Assembly: GCA_018992685.1 (NCBI GenBank)
Contig: JACVGT010000003.1
Location: 124,001-188,000, forward strand
Reading direction: 5' to 3'
Source: Theionarchaea archaeon
GTDB lineage: Archaea; Methanobacteriota_B; Thermococci; Methanofastidiosales; SZ-28-30
DNA length: 64,000 nt
Of this stretch, positions 56,336 to 64,000 are shown one piece after another. Made by a program: the position numbers and the translations under genes. Under the pieces are notes generated by a model that saw nothing but the letters and a program-made list of their open reading frames with translations, had not been told where the DNA came from and did not search any database. Positions within the stretch are counted from its first letter, which is position 1. Each line of letters begins with the position of its first letter.

Positions 56336-57028
56336 TTACACTGGCTGTTCTTCCAGTACGAAATTCATGAGTTTCATCTCAGCTTTACGCAAGTGCTCCC
56401 ACGCTGTGCTGGTGCTGATCCCCATGTCAACAGCTATGGTCTTGATATCAGTTTTCCGGGGAAATGAATAGTATCCGTGTTCAAAAGCAGCATGGATTAT
56501 CTTCCGCTGCATTTCTGTGAGGTGAACGTCACCTGAAAGCGGCCAGGACCACTTCAGGAAGGACATTTTTCTGGCGTGATCATTGCGCACAATTTTCTTT
56601 ATCTTGTATTCCAGGTTCGCCTTGGTGAGGAGATCGAAGTACTCCTGCAGTGATACGTCTTTGTACACAATCCCCGAGATCACTTCCTTTTCCTCCTGGA
56701 CTATGATTGGATAATCAAGGATAAATCCCATTTTGTTGGTCTCTCTGATGACGGAATTTGCCTCAGGTCCAATGATGTACCTCAACTTGGTAATGTTTTC
56801 TGCACTGACGACATCAATGATGGTGACGTCGTCTGGAACATGAGAAATGCACTGCTGGACCTCATGATTGTGTTCAGCCTTTGAGAATTTCACTGATAAT
56901 TCAATGTACACACTCCCATCTTTGAATACGTCTGCTCGATCTATGAGACATGTCTTGACATGATCCAACCTGGAGACTCTGTTGCACAATCCTCCTGTGT
57001 GGTATATGTTTAGACGAGCATAATACAT
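56336..57028 (-). CDS. Bat-type (HTH_10) transcription regulator
   Basis: A 230-residue regulator. The C-terminus (LTEMQRKIIHAAFEHGYYSF, RKTDIKTIAVDMGISTSTAW) is a bat-type HTH typical of archaea. The N-terminal 150 residues resemble the sensor part of such regulators and contain no enzyme motif. It lies next to the divergent amino-acid module at 57.4-63 kb and may control it; that is a guess from position only. Confidence 0.82.
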   Translation of the reverse strand: MYYARLNIYHTGGLCNRVSRLDHVKTCLIDRADVFKDGSVYIELSVKFSKAEHNHEVQQCISHVPDDVTIIDVVSAENITKLRYIIGPEANSVIRETNKMGFILDYPIIVQEEKEVISGIVYKDVSLQEYFDLLTKANLEYKIKKIVRNDHARKMSFLKWSWPLSGDVHLTEMQRKIIHAAFEHGYYSFPRKTDIKTIAVDMGISTSTAWEHLRKAEMKLMNFVLEEQPV

Positions 57029-57387: not shown

Positions 57388-58653
57388 CTACCAGGCCATG
57401 TTATAGTGGGTTTTCATCAGTTCCACGAATTTGTCCCACTCTCCTCCCACAGGATCAGGTAGAGAAAAGTGAGTCTCAATAACATCCGGGTCTTTCAATC
57501 CTCCACCTGTGATTACGCTTACTACAGTGTCTTGGGCATCTATATGTCCCGAGTCATGCAGAGTTTTGGCCGCAGCAATCGCAGCAGCAGAAGTTGTGCT
57601 GGCATAAATACCCTCGTGAGTCGCCAGGGAGAAGACGGCTTCCAGAATGTCACCATCTTCTACCGTAAGGGCCACACCCCCTGAGTCTTTTACAGCTCTG
57701 TAAGCCTGGTAACCCACCTGTGGCACCAGAATGTGCTTGGCAATGGTGGGGGCAGTTTCAACTCTCTGGATGCATTCTGCACCGCTGGTGAGGGTCTTGG
57801 TAAGAGATCCCCCAGCAGATGACTCAACAGCCACCATCTGGGGAAGTGCGTCAATGAACCCTGTGGTATAGAGATCCTGGAACCCTCTCCACACGGCAAA
57901 CAGCCCAAATCCCATTCCAGTGGGAACGATCACATAGTCTGGAACATTCCATGAAAGCTGTTCGCAGATTTCAAATGCCACAGTTTTTCTCCCTTCTTCA
58001 CTGTAAGGATCTCCTGTGGGTGATCTGGTGTAGCTGCTGACGGGATGTGCATGCAATGTGTCCACGCATGTTTTCATGAGGACATACCTGTCTTCGTATT
58101 TCTTCAGGTAGACCACCTTTCCACCATACGAGAGGGTCTGCAAGATGGCCTGCATGGATTCGTCCTGGTTTTCAAAACTGATTACCTGGAGACCGGAGAC
58201 AGCCCCGTACGCTGCCGCTGCAGCAGCAGTATTTCCCCCTCCCGCGATGAGATGGCGGGATCCGAACTTCCTTGCCACGGTAGCTCCCACAGCAGCCGAT
58301 CTGTCCTTGAACGTGTGGGTGGGATTCCTTGATTCATCTTTAGCACACAAATGATGGAGTCCAAGGGCTGGGCCCAGTTTCCTGCAGGGCAGAAGGGGGG
58401 TTCCTCCCTCTCCCAGAGTAAGACTCGATTCAGGGTCAACAGGAAGGAATTCCTGCCACTTCCATACTCCCTGCACGCACCTTTTCTTCAACACTTTCCT
58501 AGATACAGTCTCTTTTATCTTCTCGTAATCATAGTCGACAACGACGTTTGATTGAAACCGATCCGTCTTGCAGCGTGGGCACCCCTCGAACATCCGCTCC
58601 AGTGGGTACTGAGCTCCACAATGCAAGCATTTCAGCATACGCTCATACATCAT
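57388..58653 (-). CDS. thrC: Threonine-synthase-like PLP enzyme (possible cysteate synthase)
   Basis: A 421-residue fold-type II PLP enzyme. The N-terminal zinc-ribbon-like CLHCGAQYPLERMFEGCPRC is common in archaeal ThrC. NPTHTFKDRSAAVG has the Schiff-base Lys and LIAGGGNTAAAAAAYGA is a phosphate-binding loop. Threonine synthase makes threonine from phosphohomoserine; the paralogue cysteate synthase uses phosphoserine and sulfite, and sequence alone does not settle it. AGGAGGAAG precedes the ATG at 58653. It overlaps the opine-dehydrogenase-like gene by 11 bases. Confidence 0.8.
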   Translation of the reverse strand: MMYERMLKCLHCGAQYPLERMFEGCPRCKTDRFQSNVVVDYDYEKIKETVSRKVLKKRCVQGVWKWQEFLPVDPESSLTLGEGGTPLLPCRKLGPALGLHHLCAKDESRNPTHTFKDRSAAVGATVARKFGSRHLIAGGGNTAAAAAAYGAVSGLQVISFENQDESMQAILQTLSYGGKVVYLKKYEDRYVLMKTCVDTLHAHPVSSYTRSPTGDPYSEEGRKTVAFEICEQLSWNVPDYVIVPTGMGFGLFAVWRGFQDLYTTGFIDALPQMVAVESSAGGSLTKTLTSGAECIQRVETAPTIAKHILVPQVGYQAYRAVKDSGGVALTVEDGDILEAVFSLATHEGIYASTTSAAAIAAAKTLHDSGHIDAQDTVVSVITGGGLKDPDVIETHFSLPDPVGGEWDKFVELMKTHYNMAW

Positions 58654-59719
58654 TCTTCCTCCTTGAAACCATGTCCACGATCTCCTCAGGAGCCATTCCG
58701 CTGAGTCCCAAGCGCTCACATGTCACTCCCCTTTCCCAGTAGTCAGTACCGTCAACCACTGACCAAGCCCCAACCAACATTCTGGCACCAGGAGCTGGAA
58801 TCTTGAGCATATCACACAGGGAGACGAGTGGAACAAGGCCATAGATTAATTCTTCCCGGACATAGCTCAAAGGATCTGGTAACACGTACTCACGGACGGC
58901 CTCCCAGTTCTTGATTGTCTGATAGGTCGTCTCTCCCTTCACTGCGTAATAGTCCTGAATCATTGTGGCTGCACTCTTGAGATCCAGCCCCAGAGTATGG
59001 CACAGGGCCAGCCGTTCTGAATCCGCAGCGTCCACAGCCCTTGCAACTCTGGGGGATATTCCCTCCGAATAGAACCAGAAGGTTTCAGAGTCCTCTTCTA
59101 CACGGTTCATGTTGAAAAGAGCAATTGGCACGTGGATCACGGGGTTATAATTTTCAAGGCTGGTTTCCAGAACACTTCGCCCCGGAACGAGTTGCGGCAC
59201 ATAGGCATGGAGCTTCTCATACACAGAATTCAGTCTATCTGGAGGGTAGGTTGCCATTCTCACAGTACTCTTTTCTCCGGAAATACGGACGTGACCTGGT
59301 TCCACCACTCTGCAGGCCAGTGGCAACAGGGTCGTTTCTGCTATTGTGACGTCAGTTCGATCAGATTCTCTTAAGAGATGCTGGAGTCTCAGGGCGGCCC
59401 AGTATCCAGTGAACACGACAATGACTGCATGCTCCTGAAGATAGGGGAGACTCTGTTCTACCAATGACTCGTGCCCTCCAGCTCGTGCAGTGACCAGTAC
59501 ATAGGGAACATTGGAAACGACAGTTTCAAGATCACACGACGCTGCCTGTATTGCAGCCTCTCCTTCCAGGATTCCTGATACCTTCAGTCTGCGAGAGCCG
59601 GCAAGGGAGGCAATCCTTTCTGGGGTTCTGTTGTAGAGAAAAAGATCGTGGCCTTTGAGGGCTAGATAGCCAGCAATCCCCTGCCCGGCACTGCCAGCTC
59701 CCAGGACTGCAAATTTCAC
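58643..59719 (-). CDS. Opine/octopine-dehydrogenase-like NAD(P)-binding protein
   Basis: A 358-residue protein. It starts MKFAVLGAGSAGQGIAGYLA (GxGxxG Rossmann loop) and has the central VTARAGGHESLVEQ segment. LENYNPVIHVPIALFN is the conserved NPxxHP-like motif of octopine dehydrogenase family proteins, and the C-terminal half is helical. GTG at 59719 is the likely start: AGGAGGA lies five bases before it. Such enzymes join an amino acid to a 2-oxo acid reductively, or act in reverse. It is the first gene of the leftward pair. Confidence 0.78.
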   Translation of the reverse strand: MKFAVLGAGSAGQGIAGYLALKGHDLFLYNRTPERIASLAGSRRLKVSGILEGEAAIQAASCDLETVVSNVPYVLVTARAGGHESLVEQSLPYLQEHAVIVVFTGYWAALRLQHLLRESDRTDVTIAETTLLPLACRVVEPGHVRISGEKSTVRMATYPPDRLNSVYEKLHAYVPQLVPGRSVLETSLENYNPVIHVPIALFNMNRVEEDSETFWFYSEGISPRVARAVDAADSERLALCHTLGLDLKSAATMIQDYYAVKGETTYQTIKNWEAVREYVLPDPLSYVREELIYGLVPLVSLCDMLKIPAPGARMLVGAWSVVDGTDYWERGVTCERLGLSGMAPEEIVDMVSRRKNDV

Positions 59720-59898
59720 ATAGATTCCTCCTGCAGCCAACATGAGTGGCAATCTTCACTCAGTTGGGATTACCCCTTGTGGCGGAATCTTAAATTATTA
59801 TTGCCTGAATACTTCGGCAAAGTTCTTATAAACAATTGTTCACAAATAATGAGCTAGGATTGGCAGGATTCGCATTCTGTTAATCGAGAGGTGATTCT
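59720..59898. promoter_or_regulatory. Divergent promoter with palindromic operator
   Basis: Rightward TATA CTTATAAAC (59824-59832) overlaps the perfect palindrome AACAATTGTT (59831-59840). Leftward, AATAATTTAAGATT lies near 59787-59800. The rightward mRNA has a leader of about 45 bases with GAGAGGTGA at 59886-59894. A regulator bound at the palindrome could control both halves of the module. Confidence 0.5.
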
Positions 59899-61026
59899 AT
59901 GTCAGATTGTTCAGTTATTGGGATGAATAAAGACGATCTGGACACACCGTGTCTCCTGGTAGATTTGGATGTTGTTGAAAAGAACATTAAGACAATGGCT
60001 GACTACTATAGAAAGAAGGAAGGTGCAGCCCTGCGTCCCCATCAAAAAGGACACAGACTTCCTATAATAGGAAAGAAACAGGTTGAAGCGGGAGCCAAAG
60101 GAGTTTCTATGACCTCTCTGGGTCTTGCAGAGTATTATGCACAGTGTGGATTCTCAGATATCCTGGTGACCAATGAGGTGGCAGGGTATAACAAGATGAG
60201 ACGGGTAGCAACTCTCTCCAAACAGGCAGATGTCACTGTGGGCGTAGATAGTATCGAAAATGCGATGAAGCTGGGAGATGTGGCACGCGAGATGGACACA
60301 GTGATACAGGTAGGTGTAGAACTCTACATGGGAACGGGCACGTGTGGAGTAGACATGAAAGATGCAGGGTCTCTGATAAAGAAGATCACCACGGTAGGTG
60401 GAGTCATGTTCAGGGGTGTCTGGTGGCACCAGGGTTCTCTGGCTGATATTATTAACTGGGAGGAAAGAAAACAGGCCCATTTCAAGACTCTGGATAGGGT
60501 GGCCATGCTGAAGTCAGAGCTTGAGAAAGAGGATATTTCTCTTGAGATTATCAGTGGAGGATTTACGTGTACCTGGGACATCACCCCTGAGTACGGTGGA
60601 CTGGAGAATGTTGAGGTTCAGGCCGGAAGCTATGTATTCAGTGACTGGTGTTCCCACGAAAGCGAAGGGCTCGATGTATTTGACTATGCATTGACTGTCC
60701 TGACCAGATGCATCAGTCGGCCCCAGCCAGATGAGATATGCTTCGATGCAGGCATGAATGCGTGTTCTGATGAACACACTGACAGCTATTTGAATGTCGT
60801 GGGGTTCAAGATCAAAGGCATGGAAGGGATAAAGAGGGTAAAACAGCGTGAAGAATTGTCCATGGTGAAGGTTGAAAAGCCTCCATCAGATATTCGTATA
60901 GGAGATACCGTGGAGTTGATACCTCCTCATTCTGATACCACGGCCAAGCTTCATGACAGGTATTACGGAGTACGCAAAGGGAGAGTAGAAGCTGTTTTTC
61001 CTAACTACGGAAGGGGACTTCTCTAG
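59899..61026 (+). CDS. D-threonine-aldolase/DSD1-family PLP enzyme
   Basis: A 375-residue fold-type III (alanine-racemase-like) enzyme. DLDTPCLLVDLDVVEKNIK begins the barrel and LRPHQKGHRLP holds the PLP Lys. The metal site near the C-terminus reads PPHSDTTAKLHDRYYGVR, with His-x-Asp as in D-threonine aldolase; D-serine dehydratases have His-x-Cys. It may cleave D-threonine or a D-3-hydroxy amino acid to glycine and an aldehyde. The flavoprotein gene follows 20 bases downstream. Confidence 0.82.
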   Translation: MSDCSVIGMNKDDLDTPCLLVDLDVVEKNIKTMADYYRKKEGAALRPHQKGHRLPIIGKKQVEAGAKGVSMTSLGLAEYYAQCGFSDILVTNEVAGYNKMRRVATLSKQADVTVGVDSIENAMKLGDVAREMDTVIQVGVELYMGTGTCGVDMKDAGSLIKKITTVGGVMFRGVWWHQGSLADIINWEERKQAHFKTLDRVAMLKSELEKEDISLEIISGGFTCTWDITPEYGGLENVEVQAGSYVFSDWCSHESEGLDVFDYALTVLTRCISRPQPDEICFDAGMNACSDEHTDSYLNVVGFKIKGMEGIKRVKQREELSMVKVEKPPSDIRIGDTVELIPPHSDTTAKLHDRYYGVRKGRVEAVFPNYGRGLL

Positions 61027-61046
61027 GGTAATGTGAGGAGTGTGTC

Positions 61047-62729
61047 ATGAAGATCACGACTGTAGAAAAAGCGTATGACATTGTGGTAGTGGGGGGAGGA
61101 GGTGCAGGCGCTCAGGCGGCCCTTTCTGCTTCTGCTACTGCCAGTGACCTGAAGATAGCACTTGTTGACAAGGGCATCCTAGGGAGATCGGGGTGCACGA
61201 TTTTAGGCAGTTTTTCCTGCAATGCAGCTCTCGGTTCCGGGGGATCTGGAGATAGCCCTCGGGCACATTTTCTGGACACGATCAAGGAAGGACGATACAT
61301 CAATGACCAATCGCTGGTGAGAGTGTATACTGAAAAGGCACCAGAACGTGTTGTGGCCCTGCACAGAGAAGGTCCCGTTTTTGAAGAGGAGGATGGGGAA
61401 CTGAAGCAGGATATGGTACCTGGACACTCGTTTCCCCGGGCAGTCTTCAACAATCTGCATACAGGGAAGAGTATGATTGTGGCTCTGATGAAACAGGTGA
61501 AGAGAGCCCCTATAGATGTATATGATGAATGCATGATCTTTGACGTGGTGTGTGAGGGCAATGAAATCCGAGGAGTAGTTGCATACGACCTCGCAGGCAG
61601 GATCATAGTCTTTTCATGCAAGGCAGTGATCATTGCAGCTGGAGGATGTGGGCAGCTCTACCCTCACAGTACTACCAGCAGGGGAGCAACAGGAGATGGA
61701 CTCGTCTTGGCCTACAAAGCGGGAGCAGAGCTTCAGGACCTGGAATTCATCCAGTTTTTTCCCACAGCTCAATGTTATCCTCGGCTGTTGAAATTAAACC
61801 CCACCATACCTTCTATGCTGCGCTACAAGGGGGGGTGTAGATTGTACAATGCAGAAGGCCATGAATTCATGAAGGAAAAGAATCCCCAGTGGCGGTTTAG
61901 CGTAACCCGAGACGAGCTGTCCAAAGCTATCTATACGGAAATCAAGGAGGGAAGAGGAACTCCTCATGGCGGGGTGTACATGGATGTCCTCCATCTGACA
62001 GAACAGGAAATCACTGATATATTCTCATTTGCCAACCTTTTTGATGACCTGTTGAAGACAGGCATAGACTTGCGAAAGGATCGAATTGAGACGACTGTTG
62101 CAGCTCATTTTTCCATGGGCGGCATTCGGGTTGATGAGACCTTCGCTACATGTGTTGGCGGGCTGTTTGCTGCAGGGGAAGCTGCTGCAGGGATACACGG
62201 GGCAAACAGGCTGCCGGGAAATGCGTTGTCAGAGATTCTGGTGACAGGGCACGAAGCAGGAAGGAGAGCTGCAGAATACGCACGCAAGACGGAATTCCAC
62301 GAGATCGAGGGAACAGAGAGTGTCAGGAAGATTGAGGGCACCATGGAGAGAACAGGTGACAGTACCCCCATAGCCATGAAGAAGGAGATACAGAGGACAC
62401 TGTGGGAACACGCAGGAGTAGTCAGGAACGAGAAAGGACTCATGAATGGCATAGCAACACTTGAGAGAATAAGAGAAGATATGTCAAGAGTTGAGATATC
62501 CACTGAGACGTTGGTGTGGAATAAAGAACTGGTAGACTTCCTTGAAATGGAGTTCATGGTGGAAATGGGTCTGCTGTTGACCAGAGCAGCACTATTCAGG
62601 ACAGAATCGAGGGGATCCCACTTCAGAGAGGATTACCCTGAGAGTGATTCATCCTGGATAGTAAATGTCGTGCTGCGCAACGGAACCTGTAGAAGGGAAC
62701 CCGTGATGATGGAGGAATCAGATGACTGA
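61047..62729 (+). CDS. Fumarate-reductase/succinate-dehydrogenase-type flavoprotein
   Basis: A 560-residue FAD enzyme. DIVVVGGGGAGAQAALSAS is the FAD loop. HSTTSRGATGDGLVLAYKAG, LEFIQFFPTAQCYPRL and HFSMGGIRVDE belong to the SdhA/FrdA/TfrA core; FAAGEAAAGIHGANRLPGNA is the second FAD segment. L-aspartate oxidase is in the same superfamily and cannot be excluded. The next gene overlaps its end and codes a 2Fe-2S protein that could accept its electrons. The substrate could be fumarate or a product of the neighbouring aldolase. Confidence 0.85.
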   Translation: MKITTVEKAYDIVVVGGGGAGAQAALSASATASDLKIALVDKGILGRSGCTILGSFSCNAALGSGGSGDSPRAHFLDTIKEGRYINDQSLVRVYTEKAPERVVALHREGPVFEEEDGELKQDMVPGHSFPRAVFNNLHTGKSMIVALMKQVKRAPIDVYDECMIFDVVCEGNEIRGVVAYDLAGRIIVFSCKAVIIAAGGCGQLYPHSTTSRGATGDGLVLAYKAGAELQDLEFIQFFPTAQCYPRLLKLNPTIPSMLRYKGGCRLYNAEGHEFMKEKNPQWRFSVTRDELSKAIYTEIKEGRGTPHGGVYMDVLHLTEQEITDIFSFANLFDDLLKTGIDLRKDRIETTVAAHFSMGGIRVDETFATCVGGLFAAGEAAAGIHGANRLPGNALSEILVTGHEAGRRAAEYARKTEFHEIEGTESVRKIEGTMERTGDSTPIAMKKEIQRTLWEHAGVVRNEKGLMNGIATLERIREDMSRVEISTETLVWNKELVDFLEMEFMVEMGLLLTRAALFRTESRGSHFREDYPESDSSWIVNVVLRNGTCRREPVMMEESDD

Positions 62730-63036
62730 AACTGCAATAGTCACCATTTTTAGATTTAATCCAGAAAGAGACGATTGTCCCAGAATGGAGGAATTCGAAA
62801 TACCATTTGACCCGAAAAAGACTGTTCTGGAGGTTCTGCAATACATTTACGAAGAAAAGGATGGATCACTGGCCTTCAGAGAGTCCTGCAGGTCTGGGTT
62901 CTGCAGCACGTGCGGGGTCACTGTTGATGGGAACCGCTGCCTGGCGTGCACAACCTACATGAAAAGAAAAATGACGATAGAACCTCTTGCACATCACAGA
63001 GTACTGAGAGACCTTGTAGTCGAGATGAAGAAGTGA
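62722..63036 (+). CDS. Small [2Fe-2S] protein, N-terminal half of FrdB/TfrB type
   Basis: A 104-residue protein with the fumarate-reductase iron-sulfur-subunit N-terminal fold. ESCRSGFCSTCGVTVDG and RCLACTTYM give the cysteines of the [2Fe-2S] centre. Normal FrdB/SdhB proteins continue with a domain holding [4Fe-4S] and [3Fe-4S] centres; here the gene stops first. It overlaps the flavoprotein by 8 bases, so the two form a complex in all likelihood. Confidence 0.85.
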   Translation: MTETAIVTIFRFNPERDDCPRMEEFEIPFDPKKTVLEVLQYIYEEKDGSLAFRESCRSGFCSTCGVTVDGNRCLACTTYMKRKMTIEPLAHHRVLRDLVVEMKK

Positions 63037-63116: not shown

Positions 63117-63147
63117 AAGGCCAGCAAAATGACATGAGGTGCAAAAA

Positions 63148-63489
63148 ATGGCAGATTGGACAGCCCTAGGAACCGGGCTTATCATAAACGTGATCCTAGG
63201 GACAATTGTACTGCACTTGGCGGCACGATTTGGGAAGGTTGACGACGCGACCATAGTGAAAGCATTTATGGCTGCATTGATCGTTGCAATATTGGGGCTG
63301 GTTCTTGGCTACGTCTACTATCTGGGCGGAATCATTGCGTTCATCCTGGCAATAGTAGTCATCAAATATGTGTACGCCACCAGCTGGGGAAAGGCAGTCA
63401 TTACGTGGATACTGTACATCATCCTGATGATCGTCCTCCTCATCATTGTTGGATTGATCCTTGGGGTGTCTTACCTTGCACTTGGGTGA
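63148..63489 (+). CDS. Small integral membrane protein, unknown
   Basis: A 113-residue protein with three to four hydrophobic helices (TGLIINVILGTIVLHLAARF, KAFMAALIVAILGLVLGYVY, IIAFILAIVVIKYVY, WILYIILMIVLLIIVGLILG). GAGGTG precedes the ATG at 63148; a GTG at 63139 in the same frame is less likely. No family was recognised. Confidence 0.7.
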   Translation: MADWTALGTGLIINVILGTIVLHLAARFGKVDDATIVKAFMAALIVAILGLVLGYVYYLGGIIAFILAIVVIKYVYATSWGKAVITWILYIILMIVLLIIVGLILGVSYLALG

Positions 63490-63727: not shown

Positions 63728-64000
63728 ATGAAACCAGTCTACACAGAGAAAGCACCAAAACCAGTGGGTCCGTACTCACAGGCCGTGAAGAGCAACGGAT
63801 TCCTGTTCGTTTCGGGGCAATTAGGAGTGGACGTCAAAGGAATCACGACGGATACCATAGAAGGTCAGACAGAGCAATGTATCCTCAACATACGAAACAT
63901 TCTTGAACAGGAGGGATTGTCACTGGAGAAAGTAGTCAAGGCTACTGTCTACCTTGCGGATATGAATGATTTTCAGAAGATGAACTCTGTTTATGAGAAA
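63728..64000 (+). CDS. ridA: RidA family protein, 5' part
   Basis: The window ends within this gene. The first 91 residues read MKPVYTEKAPKPVGPYSQAV, then GFLFVSGQLGVDVKG and VVKATVYLADMNDFQKMN, which are the RidA/YjgF/YER057c hallmarks. RidA proteins deaminate reactive enamines or imines from PLP enzymes, which would suit the PLP-enzyme module at 57.4-61 kb. A TATA-like CTCTTAAGAA lies near 63697-63706. Confidence 0.9.
   Translation, partial: MKPVYTEKAPKPVGPYSQAVKSNGFLFVSGQLGVDVKGITTDTIEGQTEQCILNIRNILEQEGLSLEKVVKATVYLADMNDFQKMNSVYEK

Follow-up and report, generated by a model that had tools for sequence, protein, structure and literature searches.

Two divergent operons of altered amino-acid and fumarate-type enzymes flank a conserved intergenic region in a Theionarchaea archaeon

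The locus described here lies in a 3.0 Mb Theionarchaea genome assembled in 45 contigs, of which we analysed a stretch of 64,000 nucleotides (contig JACVGT010000003.1, positions 124,001 to 188,000), referred to below as the window. Five open reading frames, all intact, form two tight operons placed back to back on either side of a 179-base gap. The genes and the features around them are as follows, with coordinates counted from the first base of the window unless another locus is named:

56336–57028, minus strand: HTH_10 regulator (PF04967), 88% identical and in the identical place in the sister species
57388–58650, minus strand: PALP, a fold-type II PLP enzyme, threonine-synthase-like (PF00291, 190 bits)
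58643–59719, minus strand: ODH, an opine-dehydrogenase-like NAD(P) enzyme (PF02317; best PDB match 1bg6, 148 bits)
59720–59898, no strand: divergent control region, with a core at 59780–59898 that is 94% identical to the sister species
59899–61026, plus strand: ALD, a fold-type III PLP enzyme with an aldolase-type HxD metal motif (PF14031, PF01168)
61047–62729, plus strand: FLV, a fumarate-reductase-type flavoprotein with a remodelled substrate site (PF00890, PF02910; alignments; tree)
62722–63036, plus strand: FES, a lone [2Fe-2S] domain (PF13085, 99 bits; four Cys)
63728–64000, plus strand: start of a RidA-family imine deaminase gene that continues past the window (L006 9728–10093; TIGR00004, 140.6 bits)
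L006 10238–11446, same direction as ALD-FLV-FES: alanine-aminotransferase-like gene after RidA (PRK08363, 545 against a cut-off of 534)

PALP and ODH overlap by about 8 nt and FLV and FES by 8 nt. ODH starts with GTG downstream of a GGAGG, and the start of PALP was set by alignment with its orthologues in two genomes of another family of the same order (G008 and G011). The layout is the one given in an earlier note on this DNA, with which the open reading frame list, the Pfam matches and the exact length of the gap agree, and the enzyme classes named there were borne out by a Pfam family for each of the five proteins. Like that note, we know of no described pathway that matches these five enzymes. 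No specific model of a characterised family, such as would settle the substrate, was passed by any of the five proteins. They are related to familiar amino-acid and fumarate enzymes, and the active sites of several are altered. Between FES and RidA lies a reading frame for a hydrophobic protein of 116 aa (63139–63489) with no Pfam match, which was not found at the equivalent place in the sister species.

The alignment of FLV with FrdA, NadB and TfrA extends along the whole protein. The residue roles in FrdA and NadB are established for these families: we take His232 and Thr244 of E. coli FrdA to bind the dicarboxylate, Glu245 to act as a relay, Arg287 as the proton donor, and His355 and Arg390 to bind the carboxylate. 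With this numbering transferred to FLV by alignment, Arg248, Arg287, His355 and Arg390 are kept, the last three and the flavoprotein fold being common to TfrA-TfrB (the CoM/CoB-type thiol fumarate reductase) and SdhA-SdhB. Unlike TfrA and SdhA, FLV lacks His232, Thr244 and Glu245, which are Phe, Pro and Ser in both species of the genus, and the FAD-linking His44, which is replaced by Cys. The His-Thr-Glu set is retained in E. coli FrdA, in E. coli NadB, in the genome's own second Sdh-like flavoprotein, which adjoins an iron-sulfur subunit and an HdrB-like gene, and in nearly all TfrA/SdhA relatives examined, the exceptions being a clade with the motif QFFPT and L080. Six genomes of family f4 were checked and carry QFFPT together with the Cys, as in FLV. 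FLV scored below the cut-offs of both the TfrA model PRK06263 (459.9 bits against 718) and the L-aspartate oxidase NadB model TIGR00551 (317 bits against 452.75). In the tree, it groups with the QFFPT flavoproteins of f4 and with proteins of family f3 at a support of 98/96, on long branches; these nearest relatives are 30–34% identical and have unrelated neighbours, among them, in f4, threonyl-tRNA synthetase and adenylosuccinate-synthase-like genes. The clade with QFFPT in place of QFHPT recurs in related archaeal families (L139 6960–8552, L140, L143–L146, L147, L148, L150), and we know of no described function for it.

A comparable change has been described in urocanate reductase, where the dicarboxylate histidine is replaced by tyrosine and the equivalent glutamate is lost, while the carboxylate-binding residues are kept (PMC7921117). 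FLV likewise has a fumarate-reductase fold in which the dicarboxylate-binding His and the proton-relay Glu are replaced and the carboxylate-binding residues retained; unlike UrdA, it has Phe rather than Tyr, lacks the FMN domain and has an iron-sulfur partner. Given the loss of His232, Thr244 and Glu245, we infer from these alignments that FLV acts on a substrate other than a C4 dicarboxylate, probably one without a second carboxylate. FLV would bind a single carboxylate through His355 and Arg390, use Arg287 as acid/base, and accommodate a side group other than a carboxylate at the site taken by His232 and Thr244 in fumarate reductase; with such a group in that position, it would either reduce a monocarboxylic 2-enoate, in the manner of urocanate reductase, or act as an amino-acid dehydrogenase.

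FES, with 104 aa, consists of the 2Fe-2S domain only, without the C-terminal 4Fe-4S domain, and passes the broad dhsB subfamily model through its first 101 positions. Encoded directly after FLV, it corresponds to the N-terminal domain of TfrB/SdhB, the 4Fe-4S and C-terminal domains of TfrB being absent. Its counterparts in Thermoproteota and in the f3 relatives of the same order continue into a longer TfrB. FLV and FES would form a soluble electron-transfer pair in which FES passes the electrons. Flavoprotein pairs of Thermoproteota were also considered as a guide and set aside, those examined being full-length TfrAB with the usual residues.

ALD belongs to a superfamily which we take to comprise D-threonine/3-hydroxy-D-aspartate aldolase and D-serine dehydratase. 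It shares the PLP barrel fold and the H-x-D metal motif with BhcC and D-threonine aldolase, from which it differs by an identity of about 34%, a separate clade and different neighbours. Its motif reads PPHSDTT, compared with HCDPT or HVDPT in the aldolases and HACAT in D-serine dehydratase, in which H-x-C is the established metal motif. The D-threonine-aldolase-like label proposed earlier holds as to class; the closest structure is instead that of a 3-hydroxy-D-aspartate aldolase (6qkb, 178 bits), D-threonine aldolases reaching at most 139 bits. Through metal-assisted retro-aldol chemistry, ALD would form or split a D-3-hydroxy-amino acid. Its closest relative, 62% identical, is found in a Bathyarchaeon (L011), where it adjoins genes for a sugar-acid-type aldolase, a kinase and a hydroxyacid dehydrogenase. 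The neighbours of Bathyarchaeal ALD relatives were rejected as a functional guide, since the closest lies beside these genes and the others among unrelated ones. Other Bathyarchaeal relatives (L033, L034, L036–L040; 34–41% identity) carry H-x-C, the D-serine-dehydratase type, and the H-x-D type of ALD is thus not general in archaea.

The presence of an aldolase, a fold II PLP enzyme, an NAD(P) dehydrogenase and an aminotransferase close together recalls the beta-hydroxyaspartate cycle. In such a variant, ALD would condense glycine and glyoxylate, PALP would dehydrate 3-hydroxyaspartate, ODH would reduce iminosuccinate and the aminotransferase would close the cycle. The best named relatives of ALD are indeed 3-hydroxy-D-aspartate aldolases, at 33–35% identity; however, ALD reached only 219 of the 690 bits required by the BhcC model NF045642, and in the tree it forms a clade of its own with the Bathyarchaeon L011 protein, with full support, outside the clade of D-threonine aldolase and BhcC. 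Moreover, PALP resembles threonine synthase, ODH falls outside the BhcD family, the cycle offers no step for FLV-FES, and G008 and G011 have ODH-PALP with no ALD match found. We consider this variant quite improbable.

PALP has the fold, the N-terminal zinc-ribbon cysteines and the PLP lysine motif FKDR of threonine synthase (PRK08197 group). Unlike threonine synthase, it has GMGFG in place of the GNAGN phosphate loop and an additional SPTGDPY segment; the distinct loop is common to the orthologues of G008 and G011 (GMGFG/GQGFG). It fell below every threonine-synthase cut-off, including those of its best NCBIfam model PRK08197 (270.5 against 303) and of TIGR00260 (129.5 against 167), and a separate gene about 7 kb away passes the threonine-synthase model PRK06450.

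ODH contains the Octopine_DH domain (PF02317, 108 bits against a cut-off of 30) and is homologous over its full length to ArODH (N-(1-D-carboxylethyl)-L-norvaline dehydrogenase, 1bg6), with the catalytic His aligned. The catalytic dyad of opine dehydrogenases is His-Asp (PMC10787698), and Trp258 of ArODH is presumably the conserved active-site Trp meant in the same paper. In contrast to ArODH, the Asp297 column is Glu in this genus, and the Trp258 column is Met in ODH; the G008 and G011 orthologues have Asp at the former, and at the latter the set of ODH and these orthologues has Met or Val. A second ODH of the same genome keeps the equivalents of both Asp297 and Trp258. Two features regarded as general among opine dehydrogenases thus appear to be changed in ODH, which makes even its reaction class uncertain. 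Relatives of PALP and ODH on bacterial plasmids were dropped as a guide because the two genes are not adjacent in the three regions examined.

In the sister species (G001), all five genes occur in identical order within a syntenic block of about 12 kb, which also contains HTH_10, RidA, an aminotransferase, a second threonine-synthase-like gene and TFB; its ODH is broken by a run of unknown bases. Because the whole block is syntenic, gene order inside the genus is not independent evidence of shared function. The complete five-gene set was found only in these two species of one genus, and no other genome among 115 of the phylum has a close ALD. G008 and G011 encode ODH orthologues (56% identity) followed by a PALP orthologue (60–61% identical; L095, L096), then a D-glutamate-cyclase-like protein (PF14336), an aminotransferase and an Asp/Glu-type racemase, and in one of them a Lar_N protein lies near the pair. 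In these two MAGs we detected no FLV match at E 1e-45 and no ALD-like match; as they are 88% and 69% complete, such genes may have been missed. The gene order reported earlier thus held within the genus; in the other family only the ODH-PALP pair was found, with no rightward genes beside it, which speaks against a fixed five-gene module. On the simplest reading, the five-gene arrangement arose later than the leftward pair.

For the ODH-PALP pair, the most specific alternative is a role like that of SbnA-SbnB, with ALD-FLV-FES as a separate pathway merely sharing the promoter region. SbnB performs opine-type chemistry. By analogy, PALP would couple the amine of an acidic amino acid with an activated hydroxy-amino acid; ODH would then split the resulting opine-like compound oxidatively, giving a diamino acid plus a 2-oxo acid. 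As in the SbnA-SbnB pair, a fold II PLP enzyme adjoins an opine-type dehydrogenase, an arrangement kept across two families, and the neighbouring aspartate-racemase-like and D-glutamate-cyclase-like genes would fit an acidic amino donor. Synthesis of 2,3-diaminopropionate needs both SbnA and SbnB (PMC3179956). However, PALP scored 27.3 on the SbnA model TIGR03945 (cut-off 349.95), ODH belongs to PF02317 and differs in family from SbnB, which has the ornithine-cyclodeaminase/mu-crystallin fold, and no gene for diamino-acid use was seen nearby. We regard this role as unlikely.

The earlier note had also suggested metabolism of cysteate or another sulfonated amino acid. Cysteate synthase of Methanosarcina is threonine-synthase-like, as is PALP, and the racemase neighbouring ODH-PALP in G011 scores above the CuyB cut-off. 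PALP, however, lies far below the cysteate synthase cut-offs (35.7 against 324.9 for TIGR03844; 25.4 against 600 for NF053679), the CuyB model is passed by all f5 genomes of the same class that were searched, and the closest solved relative of the G011 racemase is an aspartate racemase (1jfl). With such low scores and so unspecific a label, the cysteate idea has lost support and is very improbable, whereas the opine and 3-hydroxy-amino-acid routes named alongside it are possible. The NCBIfam model NF052483 (racemase_CuyB) itself appears to carry too broad a label, given these f5 matches and a protein above its cut-off whose nearest solved structure is aspartate racemase 1jfl.

The gap between the two operons contains several candidate elements:

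59790–59797, minus strand: possible leftward TATA-like box TAATTTAA, a consensus reading, kept in the sister species
59801–59820, no strand: candidate inverted repeat TTGCC-N10-GGCAA, between both TATA-like boxes
59826–59832, plus strand: possible rightward TATA box TTATAAA, a consensus reading, kept in the sister species
59831–59840, no strand: palindrome AACAATTGTT, overlapping the rightward TATA-like box, not intact in the sister species

The 179-base gap is 88% identical to that of the sister species, and its 119-base core 94%. Fourfold-degenerate sites of PALP, ALD, FLV, FES and HTH_10 show an identity of 51–65%, and the other gaps of the syntenic block 58–76%, with one exception at 89%. 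Since the identity of the gap far exceeds that of fourfold sites and of most other gaps in the block, there is good evidence that it is functional control DNA under selection, in line with the shared region postulated earlier. One arm of the TTGCC-N10-GGCAA repeat is mismatched in the sister species, and the palindrome, which had been noted at the rightward TATA, does occur there, once in the window against 0.14 expected, which is weak evidence; the same position in G001 reads AACAATCATT. Lacking conservation in G001, the palindrome is not the key element, and we rejected it as an operator. Given the conservation of the region between them, the leftward and rightward operons are probably co-regulated, and the HTH_10 protein is a possible regulator.

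This conservation also bears on whether the arrangement is a genus-specific accident, in which two unrelated operons start out from a single stretch of intergenic DNA without sharing a pathway. The two parts come apart outside the genus, and the closest relatives of both ALD and FLV lie among different or unrelated genes, as such an accident would predict. However, conservation of the shared region well exceeds that of neutral sites and of most other gaps. In addition, each of the five proteins is an enzyme of amino acids or organic acids, and in several the usual features of the family have changed. We hold an accident to be somewhat unlikely.

Our preferred reading, put forward tentatively, is that the two divergent operons belong to an anaerobic amino-acid pathway not yet characterised, in which FLV-FES provides the redox step. 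It is conceivable, at less than even odds, that in this undescribed archaeal pathway the PLP and opine-type enzymes encoded nearby convert amino acids into a monocarboxylic enoate, which the remodelled FLV, together with FES, then reduces, or into a non-acidic amino acid that it dehydrogenates. ODH and PALP would constitute a unit of their own with two steps, working on an amino acid that is N-substituted or acidic. RidA and the aminotransferase, which lie downstream of ALD-FLV-FES and are co-directional with it in both species (synteny in L007), would handle enamine or imine products. The evidence, drawn from sequence comparison, points to enzyme classes and altered pockets rather than to substrates. 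For two or more of these genes, routine annotation as fumarate reductase or threonine synthase would be mistaken or unsafe. If the proposed pathway is correct, the substrate switching seen in urocanate reductase would extend to an archaeal TfrAB-type pair, and the five genes, a defined target with an active-site prediction (not a dicarboxylate), could reveal the electron acceptor or amino acid used by these archaea.

A second ODH-like gene of this genome lies on contig C1. There (L097 8513–12941) and in L105 and L107, that is, in three genomes, it is followed by a gene for a B12-binding-domain protein of 549 aa, and in two genomes NAD-synthase-like and D-Ala-D-Ala-ligase-like proteins also follow.
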